DNA from: Mesobacillus jeotgali
GTDB taxonomy: Bacteria; Bacillota; Bacilli; Bacillales; Cytobacillaceae
NCBI RefSeq assembly: GCF_014856545.2
Contig: NZ_CP109811.1
Coordinates: 1,358,001 to 1,422,000 of the forward strand
Direction of reading: 5' to 3'
Length of the DNA: 64,000 bases
Positions within the stretch are counted from its first letter, which is position 1. Every line of letters starts with the position of its first letter. A program made the translations under genes and the position numbers. This document shows, piece by piece, positions 9,070 through 61,021 of the stretch. The notes beneath the pieces were generated by a model. It saw only the letters and a program-made list of their open reading frames with translations, searched no databases and was not told the DNA's origin.

Positions 9070-9126
9070 TTATATAGGAAATTATAAAAGCATTTTAGTC
9101 TGGATAACTACATCTGGGTGTTTAAT

Positions 9127-9247
9127 CCAGCTCCAGCGCCTAGCCCCTCGAGTCGCTTCGGTCCGCCCAATGAAGTCAGTCAAAGAACGACTTCACCGGT
9201 CCGCCCTCCAGCGCTTGTCGGGGCTGAACGAGGCGCTTGCGCTTTTT
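9127..9247 (+). repeat. Dispersed intergenic repeat, full copy A
   Basis: About 120 bp beginning CCAGCTCCAGCGCCTAGCCC and ending GGCGCTTGCGCTTTTTG. The ends can pair (AGCGCCT..AGCCCC with GGGGCT..AGGCGCT), and an inner GAAGTC / GACTTC hairpin is visible. A second near-identical copy lies at 11441-11557 and a truncated inverted copy at 21577-21647. No gene inside. This looks like a palindromic extragenic repeat with folded RNA potential. Confidence 0.85.
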
Positions 9248-9307
9248 GTTCCTAATGCTTTTATAAGTATCCAGGTAATATTGCTAGTAAACTCTGGAGC
9301 CGGAAAT

Positions 9308-9481
9308 TTAAAACCCTTTAAACTTTTTACGGTTATTTAAATATATCAGTAAAATAAATAAAGCCAGAAACAGGATAGGGGAGGTAAGATATAAGGGCAG
9401 AAGGTGCATTAACCCTAAAATATGAAGGATAAAAGAAAAAAGTACGAATAGAGCCATAAGGGAAAGACCTATTTTATCCAA
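9308..9481 (-). CDS. Small two-helix membrane protein (57 aa)
   Basis: A short frame starting with TTG at 9481, eight bases after a GGAGTGA ribosome binding site, and encoding 57 residues. Two hydrophobic stretches (about residues 5-24 and 27-48) are followed by a basic tail NNRKKFKGF, as in small integral membrane proteins. I do not recognise a named family. It stands alone between pepF and a noncoding stretch; function unknown. Confidence rests on the ribosome binding site and the clean amphipathic layout. Confidence 0.55.
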   Translation of the reverse strand: MDKIGLSLMALFVLFSFILHILGLMHLLPLYLTSPILFLALFILLIYLNNRKKFKGF

Positions 9482-9700
9482 TTTTAATCACTCCGGATCG
9501 CTTTATATTTCATTTATATGCTTGCGTCCAGGCATTCATGAATCGGATTTGACAATATTGTGAAATAACACACAAGGATATTGTGATAGGGCGCCTGAAT
9601 ATGATATATTTATGGCGTGAAGTTGATCACAAGCAAACATTTACCCCTTTGTTTGACCGTGAAAAATTTCTCCCATCCCCTTTGTTCGTATAAAATAGAG

Positions 9701-9736
9701 AAAAGGCCTTGCAGTTGGAGAGCTGCAAGGCCTTTT
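9701..9736. terminator. Strong bidirectional-looking terminator without an obvious gene
   Basis: Perfect 14-bp stem AAAAGGCCTTGCAG / CTGCAAGGCCTTTT with T tracts on both strands. No adjacent coding region ends here, so it may terminate an unannotated RNA or block readthrough. Confidence 0.8.
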
Positions 9737-9784
9737 TCTGCTTTGGTTTCGGTGATTATTAATAAAAGTAGACGTTGAACATAA

Positions 9785-9900
9785 GCATTTCGACCACATT
9801 TTAAATTAATTTGGCGAATCTCGAATTTTTTCGACCACATTTCAAAATATATTGGCGGATTTACATTTTTTTCGACCACTTTTTCAATTATTTCGACAAA
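9785..9900. repeat. 41-bp tandem repeat with TTCGACCAC motif
   Basis: TTCGACCAC occurs at 9789, 9830 and 9871, exactly 41 bp apart, with a shared TTGGCG(A/G)AT segment in between, and a partial TTCGAC at 9892. About two and a half units. No coding role seen. Confidence 0.75.
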
Positions 9901-9949
9901 CCGCTTTAAATGGGGCAGTTTCCTAAATTCGATAAACAACTGCACAAGA

Positions 9950-9977
9950 AACAAAAAAAAACCGTGCAAACGCACGG
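9950..9977 (-). terminator. Terminator of the yjbI-spxH operon
   Basis: On the minus strand a CCGTGC / GCACGG hairpin with a GTTT-type loop is followed by a long T run, directly after the spxH stop codon. Confidence 0.88.
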
Positions 9978-10859
9978 TCATCCTTCTTGATATCGCCAGA
10001 ACACCCCATATTTTGCAGGGATTTGTTCGACTCGCTGCTTTAGCATTAGTTTCTTTAATTCCTTCTCGGCCTGTTGGACAGTCATGTCATATACAACGGC
10101 TACTTCCTTAGAGGCAACCATCTTGTATTGCTTCAGGAATTGTTCAAGCATTGGCGGCTCTGCAGGTTCTGGTTTCTCCTGCAGCATTTCCTCAAGAATC
10201 TGGACATAGACCTCATATGGGTAAAGACCGGTAATCTTGATGCCCTCCTCCTCGACGTTAGCGTTAAAGAAGACGAAAGTCGGAATTTCCTGGACATCCA
10301 TTTCATTTGTTATTTTCAAATCGCACTGAAATGCTTTTGCAGCAGTTTCAGAATGAATATCGGTCACAAATTCCTCTACGTCCAAACCGACGCGCCTTGC
10401 GCAGTTTTTTAATACCTCGAAGTTAGAGACATTCTGTTTTTCGAGGAAAAGGACTTCCTGAAGCTGGCGCAGGAATCGGATGCCATTCTTTCTCCCTTGA
10501 AGCTCAGCTGATTTTATCGCAATTGATGCTAAGTAAGGGGATGACACAGGGTTTTCAAACCACAGTGATCCGTCACATGACATTCCAGTTCTGCTTGCTG
10601 TTTTTTCCCAAAGCTCAGCAATCGTTTCATAACGTTTTTTTCTGCTCATGTTCAGCGTGGCCAATTTGCCGCTTAATACATGGCGAATAGAAAAATACTT
10701 GCCATATTCGATTTGCAGCTTCTTGATGATTGGTTCTAGTGCCCAGCATTCCGGACAGAGGGGGTCGACAAACATGTAAATCTCGATGGGCTTTTTATCC
10801 AGGCTATGGCAAAACTCTGATGGGTCATAGCTTAGAAGGTTTTCCCGACTCAGTTTCAT
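9978..10859 (-). CDS. spxH: ClpXP adaptor SpxH (YjbH)
   Basis: A 293-residue DsbA-like thioredoxin-fold protein. The family motif CPEC is seen in [16 protein letters not shown] near residue 35, and the cis-proline region is EIPTFVFFN. SpxH binds Spx and presents it to ClpXP; on disulfide stress it aggregates and Spx is stabilised. The B. subtilis protein also has an N-terminal zinc-binding His/Cys cluster; here there is a CHSLD segment near residue 17 but no His-rich run, so zinc binding may differ. It overlaps the upstream yjbI gene by 4 nt, so the two are co-transcribed. Confidence 0.93.
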
Positions 10860-51175: not shown

Positions 51176-51360
51176 TAAAATTTTACTCCTACTACTTCTT
51201 CTAAAGGTGTAGTGGATAGTGCACCAATTGAGTATCTTCTCGAAATAGACTGTGCGGGTTCTGACAATTAGGTAACAAAAATCAACTTAATGATCCTGAC
51301 AATCCAGAGAGTTACATTGTATTTACAGTAACAGTCCATAATAAATAATGGTTGCATAAC

Positions 51361-51404
51361 CAAAGAGGGTGATTACCTAATAGAAGGTAATCACCCTTTT
51401 TTAG
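51361..51404 (+). terminator. Terminator upstream of the cad genes
   Basis: Stem GGGTGATTACCT / AGGTAATCACCC followed by TTTTTT. It shields the cad promoter from upstream transcription. Confidence 0.85.
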
Positions 51405-51440
51405 TTTCAAAGCGCTAATTTCATGTCAATTTATCCTTTA

Positions 51441-51521
51441 TTCAAATATCCATTTGACTATTTGTTTATGTAAACGTAAAATAGAAAATGAAATTTAACA
51501 TTCAAATAAATATTTGAATGT
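51441..51521 (+). promoter_or_regulatory. cadD promoter with CadC-type operators
   Basis: TTGACT (51454-51459) and TAAAAT (51477-51482) are 17 bp apart. A perfect 11-bp palindrome ACATTCAAATA-AA-TATTTGAATGT spans 51498-51521, like the cad operator of plasmid pI258. A second, imperfect TCAAAT..ATTTGA overlaps the -35. CadC should repress here and release on Cd, Pb or Zn. Confidence 0.85.
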
Positions 51522-51566
51522 TAACGAGTATTAAATTATTAATAAAAAATAAAGGGGTTGAATCAG

Positions 51567-52223
51567 GTGGATTTAATTTTAATAATCATCTCTGCTCTTG
51601 GTGCTTTTATTGTAACCAATATTGATGATATTTTTGTCTTGATGATGTTATTCTCTATGGCAAGGTCACAATCTAAAACAAGTAATGGTCTAACGGTTAA
51701 CAAGGTTTCGAAACGTATTAACTCAAGAGATATAGTAATTGGTCAATATCTAGGTTTTGCACTTCTAGTTTTAATCAGTCTTTTAGCAACTTTTGGGATA
51801 ACGCTCCTTGCTGATCAATGGGTTGGTTTACTTGGACTAATTCCCATGTATTTAGGAGTTAGATTGTTCATCAAAGGTGAAGATGATGATGATGATAATA
51901 TTCTTTCTAGGTTAAACAAATTTAATAAGTTTTATTTAAGTGTAGCCTTTATCACTTTTGCTAATGGTGGAGACAATATTGGAATTTATGTTCCGATTTT
52001 TTCAACGTTAGAAACAAATCAATTAATTATTACTGTAGTTACATTCTTTATAATGGTTGCAATTTGGTGTTTACTGGGTTACCGTCTAGCGAGATTCAGA
52101 TTTGTTTCTGAAACACTTGAGAAATACGGGCGATGGATTATTCCAATTGTATTTATAGGATTGGGAATATATATCATGCTAGAAAATGAACTATTTACTT
52201 CTTTGATAAATCTATTTAAATAA
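51567..52223 (+). CDS. cadD: CadD-family cadmium resistance transporter
   Basis: A 218-residue membrane protein of the CadD/LysE-like family with six or so helices and the early conserved IVTNIDDIFVLMMLFS and FITFANGGDNIGIYVPIF segments. CadD gives cadmium resistance in staphylococci. I prefer GTG at 51567, nine bases after AAGGGG, over TTG at 51558. It stands first in the cad set, behind a CadC-type operator. Confidence 0.88.
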   Translation: MDLILIIISALGAFIVTNIDDIFVLMMLFSMARSQSKTSNGLTVNKVSKRINSRDIVIGQYLGFALLVLISLLATFGITLLADQWVGLLGLIPMYLGVRLFIKGEDDDDDNILSRLNKFNKFYLSVAFITFANGGDNIGIYVPIFSTLETNQLIITVVTFFIMVAIWCLLGYRLARFRFVSETLEKYGRWIIPIVFIGLGIYIMLENELFTSLINLFK

Positions 52224-52305
52224 TGTAACAGTTTTGATCGTTATGATCATTTGCTGATATGTTGACTTGATATGGAATTTATTGGGTTACTTTATTTTTT
52301 TGGTC

Positions 52306-52375
52306 CATTATTCAATAATTATTTGAATAATGTCAGGGTAATAATATATAATATATTCAAACGTACACTTGAATA
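52306..52375 (+). promoter_or_regulatory. Two CadC-type palindromes upstream of cadC
   Basis: CATTATTCAA-N7-TTGAATAATG at 52306-52332 and TATTCAA-N8-TTGAATA at 52354-52375, both perfect. The second lies just before the cadC ribosome binding site. They share the TTCAA/TTGAA core with the cadD operator, so cadC-cadA should be autoregulated. Confidence 0.8.
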
Positions 52376-52394
52376 AAAGGAGGGATAATGAGTT

Positions 52395-52763
52395 ATGAGT
52401 AAGAAAGATACTTGTGATATTTATTGTTATGACGAAGCAAAAGTCAAACGAATACAAGGTGAGATGCAAAAAGAAGATATATCTAGTGTTTCTCAATTAT
52501 TTAAAGCACTTGCAGATGAAAATAGGGCAAAAATTTCCTATGCATTATGTCAAGATGAAGAGCTTTGTGTGTGTGATGTAGCTAATATCATTGGGGCTAC
52601 TGTTGCAACGACATCTCACCATTTAAGGACCCTTCATAAACAAGGGATTGTAAAATACCGAAAAGAAGGCAAACTAGCCTTTTATTCGCTTGATGATGAA
52701 CATATTAGACAGTTAATGGTTATTGCATTAGCTCATAAAAAGGAGATGAAAGTCAATGTCTGA
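52395..52763 (+). CDS. cadC: ArsR/SmtB-family metal sensor CadC
   Basis: A 122-residue winged-helix repressor. The Cd/Pb site cysteines C7, C11 (TCDIYCYDE) and C58, C60 (ELCVCD) are all present at the positions known for CadC of pI258. The recognition helix region is GATVATTSHHLRTLHKQG. The ATG at 52395 follows AAGGAGGG. The stop overlaps the cadA start by 8 bases, so cadC and cadA are coupled. Confidence 0.95.
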   Translation: MSKKDTCDIYCYDEAKVKRIQGEMQKEDISSVSQLFKALADENRAKISYALCQDEELCVCDVANIIGATVATTSHHLRTLHKQGIVKYRKEGKLAFYSLDDEHIRQLMVIALAHKKEMKVNV

Positions 52764-54888
52764 ACAAGCTAAAATAAACAACCAAGAAGCTAAAACTTAC
52801 AGAGTTCAAGGACTCACCTGAGCAGACTGTTCAAAAACGTTCGAAGAGAACGTGAAACGTCTGGATGGCGTTTTGAATGCACAAGTTAATTTTGGTGCTG
52901 CTAAAATAACAGTTGTAGGAAATACAACGGTTGAAGCGCTTGAAAAAGCAGGAGCTTTTGATAATTTAAAATTACGAGATGAAAAAGCACAAAAAGTAGA
53001 ACGTGAACCTTTTTGGAAGCAAAAAGAAAACATTAAAGTGTATATTTCAGCCCTATTATTAATCGTTAGTTGGTTATTAGGAGAACAACTCGGAGAAGGT
53101 CATATTGTACCAACAATCGGATATGGGGCATCTATATTAATTGGTGGCTACTCCTTATTTATTAAAGGCTTTAAAAATCTAAGCAGATTTAAGTTCGATA
53201 TGAATACTCTTATGACAATTGCTATTATTGGGGCTGCATTAATTGGTGAATGGGGAGAAGGAGCAACAGTTGTTATTCTCTTTGCCATTAGTGAAGCCTT
53301 AGAACGCTATTCTATGGACAAAGCTCGTCAATCCATTGAGTCCTTGATGGATATAGCTCCAAAGGAAGCTTTAATACGACGTGGAAGTCAAGAGTTAATG
53401 ATTAGCGTTGATGACATTCAAGTAGGCGACATTATGATCGTGAAACCGGGTCAAAAGTTGGCTATGGATGGAATCGTTGTAAAAGGGACATCTACCTTAA
53501 ACCAAGCTGCGATTACAGGTGAATCTGTCCCGGTGACAAAGACCATTGATGATGAAGTATTCGCTGGTACTTTGAACGAAGAAGGATTATTAGAAGTAAA
53601 AGTAACTAAATTAGTGGAAGATACTACTCTTTCGAAAATAATTCATTTAGTAGAAGAAGCTCAGGCAGAACGCGCTCCTTCTCAAGCATTTGTTGATAAA
53701 TTTGCCAAATATTATACTCCGGCAATTGTTGTATTAGCCTTTTTAATCGCTATTGTCCCACCATTATTTGGCGGAGATTGGAGCGAATGGATATATCAAG
53801 GGTTATCCGTACTAGTCGTTGGTTGTCCTTGTGCATTAGTTGTTTCTACGCCTGTTTCTGTTGTGACCGCAATAGGAAACGCAGCAAGAAATGGTGTTTT
53901 AATCAAAGGTGGAATCCACTTAGAAGAAGCCGGTGCATTGAAGGTTATTGCTTTTGATAAAACAGGAACATTAACAAAAGGAGTTCCAGCAGTAACAGAT
54001 ATCGTAACATTTGGCAGAAATGAAAATGAATTATTGACCATCACAGCAGCGTTGGAAAAAGGATCTCAACATCCACTTGCTTCAGCAATTATGAAAAAAG
54101 CAGAAGCAAACGGATTAAATTATAATGAAGTATCTGTTGAAGATTTTCAATCTATAACCGGTAAGGGTATAAAAGCCAAAGTTAAGGACGAGATGTATTA
54201 TGTAGGAAGTCCTAGTATGTTTGAGGAAATTCTTCCAAATGGTATAGATAAAACCATTTCTGAACAAATTTCAACCCTACAAACACAAGGAAAAACGGTC
54301 ATGATTCTTGGAACCGTCAACGCAATTCTCTGTTTAATTGCTGTGGCTGATCAAGTAAGAAAAACATCTAAAGAAGTTATTCAAAAACTTCATCAACTAG
54401 GAATTGAAAAAACTGTTATGCTTACTGGTGATAACCAACGTACAGCAGAAGCAATTGGAAAAGAAGTTGGTGTATCGGACATTAAAGCCGATTTGCTTCC
54501 AGAGGATAAATTAAACTATATTAAACAACTTCGCGAAAAGTATCATAGTGTGGCGATGGTTGGAGATGGAGTAAATGATGCACCAGCTCTTGCGGCATCC
54601 ACTGTTGGAGTTGCAATGGGTGGGGCCGGAACGGATACTGCTCTTGAAACAGCCGATATTGCTTTAATGTCCGATGATTTAAGTAAATTGCCATTTACGA
54701 TGAAACTAAGTCGAAAAGCATTGAGAACCATTAAGCAAAATATTACTTTCTCTCTAGTAGTTAAAGCTATAGCTTTACTTTTAGTTGTACCGGGTTGGTT
54801 AACATTATGGATAGCTATTTTTGCCGATATGGGGGCAACATTGCTTGTAACTTTAAACAGCTTACGATTATTAAAAGTTAAAGAATAA
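52756..54888 (+). CDS. cadA: Cadmium-translocating P-type ATPase CadA with in-frame TGA at the CxxC cysteine
   Basis: From the ATG at 52756, overlapping cadC, the frame encodes [20 protein letters not shown], then TGA (52819-52821), then [20 protein letters not shown]. In CadA relatives this position is the first cysteine of the metal-binding CxxC (GFTCANC type). The rest is a complete P1B ATPase: TGES phosphatase motif, CPC in [26 protein letters not shown] with the phosphorylated aspartate, HPLASAI and [15 protein letters not shown]. No other lesion is present in 710 codons. Either TGA is a nonsense mutation, with restart at a GTG at 52852 giving a pump lacking most of the HMA domain, or it is read as selenocysteine. 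The CadC sensor is intact. Confidence 0.85.
52837..52853 (+). promoter_or_regulatory. Hairpin after the cadA TGA, SECIS-like geometry
   Basis: ACGTTC (52837-52842) pairs with GAACGT (52848-52853) around the five-base loop GAAGA. The loop begins with G, 21 bases after the TGA. Bacterial SECIS elements usually have such a G early in the loop at 16-37 bases from the TGA. The same bases encode FEENV, common in CadA, so the fit could be accidental. Confidence 0.4.
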
Positions 54889-54898
54889 AATAATGTTT

Positions 54899-54936
54899 CA
54901 TATAAAGGGATAATGGTTTTATTATCCCTTTATATG
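54899..54936 (+). terminator. Hairpin after cadA
   Basis: Perfect 16-bp stem CATATAAAGGGATAAT / ATTATCCCTTTATATG, without a strong T run. Confidence 0.7.
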
Positions 54937-55050
54937 ATTTCTTACTGAATTAAAAGGTACGATGCTTCAATGTGATTTTTCGCCCTTCTTGTTCTAAAAA
55001 ATGGGTACTTTTAAAAAATATTTATATTCAGTTTTTCGGAAGTGAAGATA

Positions 55051-55671
55051 ATGAATAATTCTTGGAATCGAGTGATTTATAAAATTTGGTCTCCAATTTA
55101 TGATAAGATTTTTAATTCGGGTGTTTTTTTAAATGCACGTAGACAAATATTTCTAGATATCCCCTTTCATAGTAATCAAAAGGTACTTTTTGTTGGTGTA
55201 GGAACAGGTGCTGATTTAGAGTTAATAACTCAATCAGATTTAGATATAACGGCAATTGATTTTTCACCTGATATGCTTAAAAAGGCAAGTGCGAAATTTA
55301 AAAATTCACCTATTAAATTCTTAGAAATGGATGCTCAAAATATGGAGTTTGATAATGAGACATTTGATTATGTAGTTGCTAGTTTAATTCTTTCTGTAGT
55401 GCCTGATGCAGATAAGTGTTTAACAGAAATGACGAGGGTTTTAAGAAAAGGAGGCAAAATAATTATTTTTGACAAATTCGTATCTGAAGAACATAAATTA
55501 TCTTTTTCAAAAAAGCTTCTTAGACCACTAATAAAAGTATTAGGAACAGATATTGGATTGAATTTTGAAGATCTGTACCGTAGAAATAATATAAATCTAA
55601 TGATAAACGAAGATAAAAATGTAATGATGAATGGAATGTACAGAAAAATAATAATTAGTAAAGTTAGTTGA
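55051..55671 (+). CDS. Class I SAM-dependent methyltransferase
   Basis: A 206-residue methyltransferase of the UbiE-like group. SAM motif I is VLFVGVGTGADLELI, motif II ITAIDFSPDMLKKAS, and motif III is MTRVLRKGGKIIIFDKF. The substrate is unknown; similar enzymes occur in metal resistance clusters. The ATG at 55051 has a GGAAGTGA site; a GTG at 55042 is in frame. It lies between cadA and merR. Confidence 0.82.
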   Translation: MNNSWNRVIYKIWSPIYDKIFNSGVFLNARRQIFLDIPFHSNQKVLFVGVGTGADLELITQSDLDITAIDFSPDMLKKASAKFKNSPIKFLEMDAQNMEFDNETFDYVVASLILSVVPDADKCLTEMTRVLRKGGKIIIFDKFVSEEHKLSFSKKLLRPLIKVLGTDIGLNFEDLYRRNNINLMINEDKNVMMNGMYRKIIISKVS

Positions 55672-55715
55672 TTATGTTTTGAGCAAATTAAAAATTTCAA
55701 AATTACTTTTTACTC

Positions 55716-55747
55716 TTTACCCTGTACTATGGTACAGGGTTTATAAT
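55716..55747 (+). promoter_or_regulatory. MerR-type promoter with long spacer
   Basis: TTTACC (55716-55721) and TATAAT (55742-55747) are 20 bp apart, longer than normal, and the spacer holds the perfect dyad ACCCTGTAC-TATG-GTACAGGGT (55719-55740). This is the hallmark of promoters twisted open by a metal-bound MerR protein. Confidence 0.85.
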
Positions 55748-55765
55748 TTATCTGAGGTGAATGAA

Positions 55766-56161
55766 ATGAAATATCGCATTAGTGAACTTGCAGAAAGGTG
55801 TGGGGTCAATAAAGAAACGATAAGATATTACGAAAGATTGGGTCTCCTTTCGGAACCTTCTCGGACAAAAGCTGGATATAGGATGTATCCAGAAGAGTCT
55901 GTGGAACGCCTACAATTTATTAAACGAATGCAAGATTTAGGTTTTTCTTTAGCCGAGATCGATAAACTACTTGGAGTTGTTGATAAAGACGACGAACGAT
56001 GTAAGGATATGTATGATTTTGTTGTTCATAAAATTGATGAAGTTCAAAAGAAAATTAAGGATTTAAAAAGAATCGAACACATGCTAATTAATTTAAAAGA
56101 TTGTTGTCCTGATGAAAAATCTCTAAATGAATGTCCTATTATTGAAACTTTGATGAATTAG
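55766..56161 (+). CDS. merR: Mercury-responsive regulator MerR
   Basis: A 131-residue MerR. The N-terminal winged helix reads YRISELAERCGVNKETIRYY, followed by a long dimerisation helix. The Hg(II)-binding cysteines C79 (DERCKDM), C114 and C123 (CCPDEKSLNEC) sit at the numbers known for the Bacillus RC607 protein, so this is a mercury sensor rather than a zinc or copper type. The start at 55766 follows GAGGTG. A MerR-type dyad lies just upstream. No merA or merB follows. Confidence 0.93.
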   Translation: MKYRISELAERCGVNKETIRYYERLGLLSEPSRTKAGYRMYPEESVERLQFIKRMQDLGFSLAEIDKLLGVVDKDDERCKDMYDFVVHKIDEVQKKIKDLKRIEHMLINLKDCCPDEKSLNECPIIETLMN

Positions 56162-56204
56162 AAAAGATAGCACAAAATATGTATCATAATAAGGTGGGAG
56201 AAGG

Positions 56205-56663
56205 ATGTCAGATTGTTGTAATAACACTAAAGAAATTAAAAATGAAAATGTTGTAAAGTGTCCATCTTGTAAAAATAGATCTAAAAATGTAAAGTTGATA
56301 ACATTAAAATCAATGCTTAAACCATCTGCATTAGAAACATTAAATGCTAAAGAAAATCACTATTTTTGTTCAACCAAAGATTGTGATGTAGTCTATTTTG
56401 ATACGAATTATAAAGAGTACTTTGTATCTGACATAAAGGTGGCCGTTCATCAAAAAGATGCCTCAGTAACTACACCAATTTGTTATTGTTTTGATTGGAC
56501 AAAAGAGAAAATAAAGGAATACGTAGAAAAAGGCCTTACTCCTAATCCAGTAGAACATATTCGAGAGAACATAAAGGAAAACCGATGTGGTTGTGATGTG
56601 AATAACCCTCAAGGTAGTTGTTGCTTGGCAAATGTTACAAGCTATATCAAAGAACTAACCTAA
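56205..56663 (+). CDS. CopZ-like cysteine-rich metallochaperone
   Basis: A 152-residue cysteine-rich protein. CPSCKNRSKNVKLIT with a zinc-finger-like cysteine pair, YFCSTKDCDVVYFD, and VTTPICYCFDWTKEKIKEYV, the CxC of the BFD/CopZ-NTD iron-sulfur domain, are visible; a CGC cluster and a second cysteine pair close the protein. Such proteins are metal or [2Fe-2S] carriers next to Hg or Cu resistance genes. Lying 43 bp after merR, it is probably the only structural gene left under its control. Confidence 0.8.
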   Translation: MSDCCNNTKEIKNENVVKCPSCKNRSKNVKLITLKSMLKPSALETLNAKENHYFCSTKDCDVVYFDTNYKEYFVSDIKVAVHQKDASVTTPICYCFDWTKEKIKEYVEKGLTPNPVEHIRENIKENRCGCDVNNPQGSCCLANVTSYIKELT

Positions 56664-56700
56664 CCTAATCTATATATACTTAACGAAAGGAAAGGGAGCG

Positions 56701-56824: not shown

Positions 56825-57523
56825 TTATTTTTTAAAAATATTGCTAAATCTATTCTCCATAGTTGAAAGGTTATTATTTTTTTGACATTGTGTTTCTGGG
56901 GCTGTTTCAGTCACTTTGAAGAAAGTATCTAAGTTTTCGAGAGTAGAATGGTTCTTATTAGTATGGTCGAATTTAATTAGATTATCTTTTAGGTTTTTTT
57001 CGTCTCTCAAGTGTGAAAAGGCACTTGAGATCATCTGACTATTATATAGATGTTCATAATGCTTAACTTGTTCTTTCAACTGTTTTATTTCTTCGTCCTT
57101 AATTTTTATTTCCTCATTCATGTCTTTTGAATTATCAAGTGCTTCTTTGTATTTCCTTACCTCATTATAAAGCTCATAAAATGCAGTTTCAATGTAGTGA
57201 AGCTCATTAATAATTTTGTTTTTATCGTTTTTATATATATCAAAAATTTGTTCGATATTTGGAAAGTATACCTCATCCTTTTCGGTTAATCCTAAAGGTC
57301 GTTTAATCGGTTTGTTCAGTTCTTCGATGGTTTCTGGAATACGTCTACTCCAAGTATTCCTGCCGATACCTGTTTGTTTTTCCAGTAACAGATAGGTTAA
57401 CTTTTGACCTTTAAATTTATTTTTAATTTCTAAAGCTATTTCTTTAAGTTCGACATCAGTATAACTGGAAGGTCGTCCTCTTTCCTTTTTAGATTCATTA
57501 CTAGCTGATTTATTTTTACTCAT
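56825..57523 (-). CDS. Tn554-like TnpC accessory transposition protein
   Basis: A 232-residue protein, basic at the N-terminus with a helix-turn-helix-like region (GRPSSYTDVELKEIALEIKN, TYLLLEKQTGIGRNTWSRRI) and a long coiled coil (KDEEIKQLKEQVKHYEHL). It is the last of three genes and overlaps the recombinase gene by 8 bases (ATGAGTAA). Position and type match TnpC of Tn554, but it is longer than the 125-aa classic TnpC. It is probably an orientation or accessory factor. Confidence 0.7.
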   Translation of the reverse strand: MSKNKSASNESKKERGRPSSYTDVELKEIALEIKNKFKGQKLTYLLLEKQTGIGRNTWSRRIPETIEELNKPIKRPLGLTEKDEVYFPNIEQIFDIYKNDKNKIINELHYIETAFYELYNEVRKYKEALDNSKDMNEEIKIKDEEIKQLKEQVKHYEHLYNSQMISSAFSHLRDEKNLKDNLIKFDHTNKNHSTLENLDTFFKVTETAPETQCQKNNNLSTMENRFSNIFKK

Positions 57524-58901
57524 ATCTCTGTTCCTCCATTAATCTAGAATCAATTATTGCTTTATGATCCATGTATTGTACTAACTTCATAGAATTTGTT
57601 TTTAATATTTCTTTAGAGTTAGGATGTCTTGAAATATCTAAGGAACTACATTGTTCCTTCATTAATAGTAGGATCTCATTGATTCGTTGATTGAGTAAAT
57701 CAGAATAATCTTCAAGCCATTTAATCCCTTCCTCATACTCTGATAAATTAGGTTTAAAAACATAGTTATCACACATTCTACAATCCTCAATACAGGTATT
57801 AGGGAATAAATGAGGTGCCTCCTTACAATATCCAAAGTCTACTATTAAAAAGTTTGTGGTATCATGTTCATTATAAATCTTACCTCTATCATATGCTTCA
57901 CGTCTCCAGCCGATAAATCCGTACGACATTGGTTCGGATACTTTTCTCTCCAAAATTTTTTGCGCCAATAAATAAACATAAGATTGGGAGAAATGAACAG
58001 CATGGGAATAGTAATTTTCTTGTGTAGCAATAACGTCATGTCCGGCCATTCTTGCAATTGAAAGCATGTTGAATCCTTGAAGAAACATATTTATTATTGC
58101 GAAATGTCTTGTATCTCCCGGCTTAACTCTTTCGAGGTTTCTTTCTGCGTAAATTTTTTCTACCACTTCATTATAAAATTCTTGTAATAAATACTCGAAA
58201 TTGTATAATGTCATCCTTTTAAAAGCCTGAGATTTTCGTTTTTTTCTATACAACAGATAAAAATCTCTTGGGAACAAATATTCATCCTCGATATCTAATT
58301 CAACTAACTTAATTTTATAAAAAGTAATGAGTTGATAGGTTTTATTATCAATTTGTATAGGTTCGTATATAATTGTTTTATCGGGTGAGTCTTGTTCATT
58401 TTTAATTCTTGGAACCTTTAGCCATGTGCTACCATCGTTTTTTTGATCAAGGCAATCTACTTTCATTAAGAGTAGTTCGTTTGGTCTCATTGGTAATACA
58501 TTTGTAGTTAACCACCATATCATAATAGGCATATATTTAAGTGTTGCTTCAATAGGTTTTGTCTGAAAAAAGTCATTTACAATGTCATTAAAAATCAAAA
58601 CATCATGAAAGTTAGGTAAATTCCTGTTTCCAAACTTTTCAAAAGGTATCGTTTCACAAATTGCTAAAATATCATTTTTTTCCTCACAGATATAAAACCC
58701 AATAAAATTTTTTAAAACATTTGAAACAGAGTAAGCACGTGGTCCTGAAAGTGGCAAAAACATTTCTTTTAGTTTATCAATGTGTTTAAACCCTTGTGAT
58801 AATAGTATTGATTTTTTGAGTATTTGAAGTTCATCATAACACTTGTGAGCATTGACCCCAGATATTCGCCTTAAAGCAATAATGTTTTTGACATCCTTAA
58901 A
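57516..58901 (-). pseudogene. TnpB-like tyrosine recombinase, 3' part, split by a transposon
   Basis: This carries the catalytic half: Arg I in NVLPMRPNELLLMK, the second box in KPGDTRHFAIINMFLQGFN, MAGHDVIATQENYYSH with the histidine and catalytic tyrosine, and a C-terminal cysteine cluster CIEDCRMCDNYVF. An ATG at 58763 is internal; the frame is open upstream (KFKDVKNIIALRRISGVNAH) to the transposon junction near 58901. The 5' part is at 62140-62415. The insertion should abolish full-length protein. Confidence 0.82.
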
Positions 58902-59665: not shown

Positions 59666-61021
59666 ATGAGTGATCATAAGAAATCAGAAGAATTGGCAGT
59701 GCAGCGTTTTCAGCTGATATCCCCTTTATTGGCAGAGGGGCTTGACGCTGGGAAAGTAAAGGAGTTAAGAGACCAGATAGCGAAGGCTAGCGGTCTTTCT
59801 GAAAGAACCATCAGGCGATATTTGGCTCAATTTCAGGTAGATGGGTTTGGAGGACTAAAGCCGCAAGGAAGAAAAGGTGCTCAAAAGTCTGAGGCTATCC
59901 CTCCTCATTTATTGGAACAGGCAATCCTTCTGCGTAAGGAAGTGCCGAGCCGGAGCGTGGCTCAAATCATACAGATACTCGAGTGGGAAGGGTTGGCTGA
60001 ACCAGGGCAGATCAAAAGGTCAACGCTCCAGGAAAAGCTCACTGAAAAAGGTTACAGCACACGGCATATGCGACTCTACTCCCAGACAGGAGTAGCTGCC
60101 AGGAGATTTCAGAAGCGACATCGCAACCAACTCTGGCAATCAGATATCAAGTATGGCCCTTACCTGCCAATTGGTCCGAATGGAATGAAGAAACAAGTAT
60201 ATCTTGTCGCCTTTATCGACGACGCCACCAGATTTGTGCTTCACGCAGCTTTCTACCCTACTTTGGATTCAAGGATCATTGAAGATGCCTTTCGGCAGGC
60301 CATACAAAAGTATGGTGTTCCAGAAGCTGTTTATTTTGATAATGGAAAGCAATATCGAACCAAATGGATGTCGCGTACCTGCTCAAAAATAGGCACCCGC
60401 CTTACATACACAAGGCCATACTCAGCTGAATCAAAAGGGAAAATTGAACGCTTTAACAGAGTAATAGATTCATTCATAAGTGAGGCTGTCATCGAAAAAC
60501 CCAATACACTTGATCGTCTGAATGAGCTTTTCCAAGTGTGGCTGACAGAGTGTTATCAGAATAAGCCTCATTCTGCACTTGGGGAGAAAATCAGCCCGGA
60601 AACGGCATTTCGTTCAGATAAGAAAGCGATTCGGTTCATCGATCCGGATACGTTGAGTAATGCATTTCTCCATTGTGAAACGAGGAAAGTTGATAAATCA
60701 GGATGCATCAGTTTCATGGATCAAAAATATGAGGTGGGCCTGACATTCATTGGACGACAGGTTGAAGTTGTTTATGACCCTGCGAATATCGAGGAGCTAA
60801 CCATTGAGTTCGAGGGTCATATTCCATGGAAAGCCAAGAAGCTGGTCATTGGGGAAAGAGCTGGGAAGCGTCCTGCATTACCTGAGCACCTGCAGGTGCA
60901 GGATGTAGAATCTTCAAGACTATTAAAGGCAGCTGAACGAAAGAACCAGGAACGTCAAACTGAACAGAAACCTGCCGTGACCTTCCGTGCCGTTTGGAAG
61001 GAGGATGATTCTCGTGTTTGA
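59666..61021 (+). CDS. DDE transposase with Mu-type C-terminal domain
   Basis: A 451-residue DDE integrase/transposase. A helix-turn-helix (SGLSERTIRRYLAQF) is followed by the retroviral-integrase core with D160 (WQSDIKYG), D225 (VYFDNGKQY) and E261 (SKGKIERFNRV), and a Mu-transposase-C domain. GAGAGGAG precedes the ATG. It partly overlaps the ATPase gene, as in MuA/MuB or TniA/TniB pairs. Confidence 0.9.
   Translation: MSDHKKSEELAVQRFQLISPLLAEGLDAGKVKELRDQIAKASGLSERTIRRYLAQFQVDGFGGLKPQGRKGAQKSEAIPPHLLEQAILLRKEVPSRSVAQIIQILEWEGLAEPGQIKRSTLQEKLTEKGYSTRHMRLYSQTGVAARRFQKRHRNQLWQSDIKYGPYLPIGPNGMKKQVYLVAFIDDATRFVLHAAFYPTLDSRIIEDAFRQAIQKYGVPEAVYFDNGKQYRTKWMSRTCSKIGTRLTYTRPYSAESKGKIERFNRVIDSFISEAVIEKPNTLDRLNELFQVWLTECYQNKPHSALGEKISPETAFRSDKKAIRFIDPDTLSNAFLHCETRKVDKSGCISFMDQKYEVGLTFIGRQVEVVYDPANIEELTIEFEGHIPWKAKKLVIGERAGKRPALPEHLQVQDVESSRLLKAAERKNQERQTEQKPAVTFRAVWKEDDSRV

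Follow-up and report, generated by a model that had tools for sequence, protein, structure and literature searches.

An in-frame TGA in the metal-binding motif of a Mesobacillus jeotgali CadA pump is almost certainly read as selenocysteine

A cadA gene of Mesobacillus jeotgali has TGA where the first cysteine of its metal-binding CxxC motif is expected, which raises the question of whether the gene is broken or whether this codon is read as selenocysteine (Sec). The gene lies at 52756–54888 on the forward strand of the 64,000-nucleotide stretch of DNA analysed here (the window) and was identified as a P1B-type heavy-metal ATPase gene from its translation and from profile and structure matches. 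Its sole internal stop is the TGA at codon 22 (52819–52821, forward strand), after which 688 codons are open. The protein scored 625.9 bits against TIGR01525 (cut-off 346.25) and 537.3 bits against the Cd-type profile TIGR01512 (cut-off 313.5), which identifies it as a P1B-ATPase of the Cd type, and its HMA domain comprises residues 14–64. The solved ZntA-type pumps 4umv (E 8.7e-141) and 7qbz (E 1.3e-139, match restricted to residues 97–709) belong to the same family as CadA; codon 22 is aligned with a Cys of the CAAC motif in 4umv, so that the metal site U-A-D-C of the window CadA would have Sec where 4umv has Cys. Translation and alignment thus agree with a previous reading made from the DNA letters alone (the sequence-only reading), according to which the TGA sits at the first Cys of the N-terminal CxxC and the frame is intact thereafter. 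Judged by comparative evidence, the internal "stop" of cadA is almost certainly read as Sec, placing selenium in the metal-binding site of the pump.

The genome (4.84 Mb, one contig) was searched for the genes of Sec synthesis and insertion, as the sequence-only reading had proposed, and the outcome supports Sec. Profile searches identified selA (564 bits, cut-off 267.9), selB (364.5 bits, cut-off 242.25) and selD (365.7, cut-off 125), and a tRNA-Sec was present (67.1, cut-off 47), with anticodon tca according to ARAGORN, i.e., tRNA-Sec(UCA). The selD frame extends upstream through an in-frame TGA (AG*GCK, about 9100–10191 of locus L261), and SelD itself is probably a selenoprotein. In known Sec formate dehydrogenases, Sec is followed by His; three of the 17 Fdh-alpha matches in the genome (L266, L267, and L272) have one TGA each, with His next. 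Because selA, selB, selD, and tRNA-Sec occur together with TGA codons in selD and three Fdh-alpha matches, the cell appears to use Sec. The idea that Sec is general to the HMA pumps of this genome was rejected, as the CopA-like locus L002 has Cys in the two GMTCA(S/A)CS motifs examined. Another locus of the same genome resembles a copper pump (L001, around 960–1040), and its 5' region either lies in another frame or is interrupted by stops before a 667-codon frame begins.

Both other cadA paralogues of the genome (L004 and L005, 65% and 70% identical to the window CadA) also have TGA at codon 22, with 691 open codons after it, and all three CadA-type copies of the genome therefore carry it. 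Among 238 loci, in which some genes appear twice because they were retrieved along two routes, codon 22 could be placed in 237 and was TGA in 138, TGT in 84, and TGC in 15; no TAA, TAG, or other codon was found among these 237. Ninety-seven of the regions (L135–L231) had been taken from a listing of family matches and were mostly picked for TGA (81/97). In the 80 named loci, chosen purely on similarity out of 521 found, TGA was present in 26 and TGT in 54. A draw of 398 genomes from the phylum gave TGA-bearing matches in other families at 53–56% identity, among the matches listed, and TGA in 11 of the 28 loci placed at codon 22, three of the 11 being from the family of M. jeotgali. The comparison with homologues envisaged in the sequence-only reading thus favors Sec, as this strain is not alone with TGA (its own paralogues, 138/237, 26/80). 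An assembly error at the TGA is excluded on comparative grounds, since the same codon is TGA in many separate genomes. The unplaced 238th locus (L257) is a more distant pump from another family of the phylum, in which TGA starts its own CxxC (GMD*PDCA). In the CadA relative L244 (genome G456), codon 22 is TGC and a TGA is found at a membrane-region codon that encodes Trp in the query; this TGA is either genuinely nonsense or erroneous.

Across the family, CadA-query matches at E 1e-100, which include other P-type ATPases, occurred in all 193 genomes, and selA occurred in 172. Among the 21 selA-negative genomes (G192 being counted here by elimination), G179 and G183, which are 81% and 80% complete, have tRNA-Sec above the cut-off; the Sec-less set was defined as the 19 genomes with neither selA nor tRNA-Sec. 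CadA matches with an internal TGA were present in 151 of 172 selA-positive genomes (100 among the matches listed and 51 of the 72 remaining genomes, examined separately) versus two of 19 Sec-less genomes, for which the Fisher p of 4.8e-12 is too small because the genomes are related. A TGA match was also present in G179. The other 21 selA-positive genomes comprised 13 with a match without stop, seven without match at E 1e-200, and one with a TAG-bearing CadA match (G028:C63:619-2766). The two Sec-less genomes with TGA-cadA are G169 (L263) and G171 (L264), the latter having a Cys cadA-like gene on the same contig. Lacking selA and tRNA-Sec, these two hosts cannot decode the TGA of cadA as Sec; either TGA-cadA may also derive from a contaminating contig.

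Two hairpins follow the TGA. The hairpin reported by the sequence-only reading at 21 bases past the TGA is real and conserved (HP1, ACGTTC-GAAGA-GAACGT, 52837–52853, forward strand, loop 21 nt after the TGA) and is the likely SECIS core. HP2 (AACGTC-TGGAT-GGCGTT, 52856–52872, forward strand, loop 40 nt after the TGA) is a second hairpin absent from that reading and probably a second part of the SECIS. The bSECIS model, as summarized in PMC13188914, has a loop of 3–9 nt with G in the first two positions, a stem of 4–16 bp, a spacing of 16–37 nt, and an energy of at most -7.5. HP1 fits in loop, stem, G, and spacing, but the 37-nt stretch that holds it folds at -7.3 kcal/mol and just misses the energy threshold; its loop has GA, where GG or GU is usual. 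The spacing of HP2 (40 nt) is 3 nt past the published range. For the 63 nt that follow the TGA, the folding energy is -17.4 kcal/mol, versus -8.9 ± 2.6 in 5000 synonymously recoded sequences (z -3.2), of which a fraction of 0.0048 reached a value as low. An outer stem in the window's own fold (CAGAC/GTCTG) was dropped, as its conservation was not apparent by eye.

The hairpins were compared in deduplicated segments assigned by locus to a Bacilli type (106 Sec, 54 Cys) or a Clostridia-like type (8 Sec, 14 Cys). At least five of the six pairs of HP1 were formed in 106/106 Bacilli-type Sec versus 13/54 Cys segments, and at least five of the six pairs of HP2 in 106/106 versus 5/54. All six HP1 pairs were present in 37 of the 106 Sec segments, and one pair is A-G in 68. 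At the level of sequence pattern, HP1 was found in all 106 Sec segments but also in 8/54 Cys segments, while the combined HP1 and HP2 pattern was found in 105/106 versus 2/54. RNAalifold recovered HP1 and HP2 for the Sec set but neither for the Cys set; for the eight Clostridia-like Sec segments, it gave a longer hairpin whose loop lies equally far from the TGA. Covariation was counted over the complete set of 80 distinct 45-nt segments: of five measures, three were greater than in 500 of 500 shuffles, the remaining two were reached by eight and nine of 500, and all five exceeded every slid version. A first count with 32 segments, i.e., the 29 most diverse of the 80 and the hand-picked L047, L160, and L049, agrees; the hand-picked segments carry paired changes that bias this count toward structure, and the 80-segment count repeats its result. 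Folds were also scored against synonymous recoding, with a single codon table, that of the window's cadA, applied to every set. Within the Bacilli type, the mean z was -2.73 in Sec and -0.61 in Cys segments; within the Clostridia-like type, it was -4.89 in Sec and -2.47 in Cys segments, and there the Cys control folds well too. Synonymous divergence over the hairpin codons was 0.206 in Sec (110 segments) versus 0.712 in Cys segments (54), with 0.50–0.74 in the Sec flanks. The pN/pS ratio was 0.18–0.35 before and after the TGA, and thus both sides are selected as protein.

A Sec-containing CadA is thereby strongly supported by comparative evidence. We propose with high confidence that cadA encodes a Zn/Cd-type P1B-ATPase whose UGA codon 22 would be decoded as Sec by SelA, SelB, SelD, and tRNA-Sec, with SelB recruited by the downstream hairpin(s). 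The UGA could instead be a regulated stop that ends a 21-residue peptide, with the hairpins controlling a restart that yields a pump without the first CxxC arm. A GTG at 52852 could serve as such a start and opens a 678-codon frame, but it lies within HP1, the codons that separate it from the TGA are selected as protein (pN/pS 0.35), codon 22 is TGA, TGT, or TGC and never TAA or TAG in the loci placed, and the link to selA is left unexplained; we regard this scenario as highly improbable. The sequence-only reading had favored a nonsense mutation as the simplest explanation, with Sec insertion as the alternative, an order that is reversed by the Sec machinery, the recurrence of TGA in paralogues and many genomes, and the conserved hairpins. 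TGT and TGC are each one base from TGA, and a Cys codon mutated to TGA would leave cadA a pseudogene or encoding a truncated pump, as must be so for the TGA genes in the Sec-less G169 and G171. The HP2 loop of G171 is changed to TGTAT, which was found in one of 110 segments and is, as one case, the decay expected in a Sec-less host. For the gene in the window, however, a nonsense mutation is scarcely credible, given that all three paralogues of this genome share the TGA, that it recurs in many other genomes, that selection acts at the protein level on both sides of codon 22, and that the RNA structure is specific to TGA genes. In bacteria, near-cognate tRNAs are known to read through UGA, and products with Trp or Cys inserted without selenium could coexist at low level, but as an explanation such readthrough has a negligible probability, since the TGA is associated with selA and tRNA-Sec over the 193 genomes of the family and the SECIS-like structure is largely confined to TGA genes.

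For the Sec-containing pump, we propose the following mechanism. Metal would induce the operon via CadC, SelB would be recruited just after the UGA by HP1, probably helped by HP2, and UGA codon 22 would be decoded as Sec via SelA, SelB, SelD, and tRNA-Sec. In the full-length protein thus made, the N-terminal HMA domain would bind metal through U-x-x-C. As the pKa of the selenol is given as 5.2 versus 8.3 for the thiol (PMC13188914), this U-x-x-C should be a stronger site for soft metals. The selenolate would act as a ligand for Cd, Zn, Pb, and perhaps Hg, and may make the capture of metal stronger or faster where it enters the pump from the cytosol. Full metal efflux would then depend partly on selenium, whose supply would limit the amount of full-length pump.

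The putative regulator gene cadC (52395–52763, forward strand; ArsR/SmtB family) is an open frame with an 8-base overlap with cadA, and the sequence-only reading had noted it as intact and coupled to cadA; this overlap recurs in two annotated plasmid relatives. A cadmium resistance transporter gene (PF03596, 51558–52223, forward strand) is located upstream and a SAM methyltransferase-like gene (55042–55671, forward strand) downstream of cadA, and such a methyltransferase-like gene is also found 3' of L004 and L005. Further neighbors in the window encode a MerR regulator and a zf_CopZ protein. The block from 51244 to 56690 is 97.4% identical to a contig of the Sec-less genome G169 and is mobile or recently transferred. 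Genes 99% identical to the window's cadA were present in at least five other genomes of the family, four of them of other genera, among the matches listed. Judged from these near-identical genes in other genera and the block shared with G169, this cadA copy has moved between genomes. A phage-integrase-type recombinase gene (56825–58763) and a Mu-type transposase gene (59666–61021) are located near the cad block.

A quick unrooted tree was calculated from 83 full-length rows (42 Sec and 41 Cys), to which an initial 104 had been thinned at 97%. The Sec/Cys label requires seven changes on this tree, at least five of them forced by starred branches, and several long branches meet. Most Bacilli-type Cys rows fall among Sec rows, e.g., those of Lentilactobacillus and Exiguobacterium, the latter also representing thinned streptococcal genes. 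Cys CadAs of Bacilli, lactobacilli, and streptococci are 75–84% identical and have TGT at codon 22, and, unlike in the window's cadA, HP1 and HP2 are mostly absent. Three genes with TGT or TGC at codon 22 have kept the hairpins in part or in full (L082 and L158 both, L222 the HP1 pattern), and probably represent recent Sec-to-Cys replacements with a fossil SECIS. A joint reading, which we offer tentatively and with doubt slightly outweighing belief, is that selenium serves as a routine metal ligand, not as a redox catalyst, in Cd/Zn efflux of a large Bacilli family, that Sec-CadA is the prevailing form in any host with Sec machinery and depends on a two-hairpin SECIS for its decoding, that it travels on mobile DNA even to non-decoding hosts, and that replacement of Sec by Cys gave rise to some Cys CadAs, among them perhaps widespread resistance versions. 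If this is true, metal resistance in these bacteria would depend on selenium.

Sec metal pumps were already predicted earlier, and Sec-CadA is common in one bacterial family. The ABB15669.1 type (TIGR01525/COG2217 ZntA), compared here by description only, is like CadA a P1B-ATPase with Sec first in CxxC; the descriptions consulted name no Bacillaceae CadA, paralogues, or two-hairpin element. A metagenome table lists such a Sec pump with one Sec gene and 882 in its last column, taken as Cys homologues (PMC2398784), and a table from 2016 lists it with 25 and 32 (PMC5029168). Most such Sec transporters are described as implicated in metal resistance and as needing further investigation (PMC13188914). 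In open-access PubMed Central, we found reviews and predictions only, with no experiment on Sec in CadA or P-type ATPases and no report on the prevalence of Sec-CadA in the family or on the two-hairpin element. This prevalence, the two-hairpin element, the mobility into Sec-less hosts, and the hairpins surviving in Cys versions are apparently new. Sec is known mostly from redox enzymes and would here be part of the metal-binding CxxC of a pump; the many natural Sec/Cys pairs, the three paralogues, and the copies stranded in Sec-less hosts make its role in a metal site testable. TGA-cadA genes can be miscalled as pseudogenes or as pumps without the first metal-binding arm. The CDS A361_RS27405 (WP_082919471.1) on plasmid pBO1 of Cytobacillus oceanisediminis 2691 is named "heavy metal translocating P-type ATPase", with selenoprotein unmentioned. 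Its protein match to the window CadA has 71% identity, which makes it a more distant paralogue, with the same cadC-cadA order and 8-base overlap as in the window, and the listed CDS spans the TGA in its GFT*AGCA motif.
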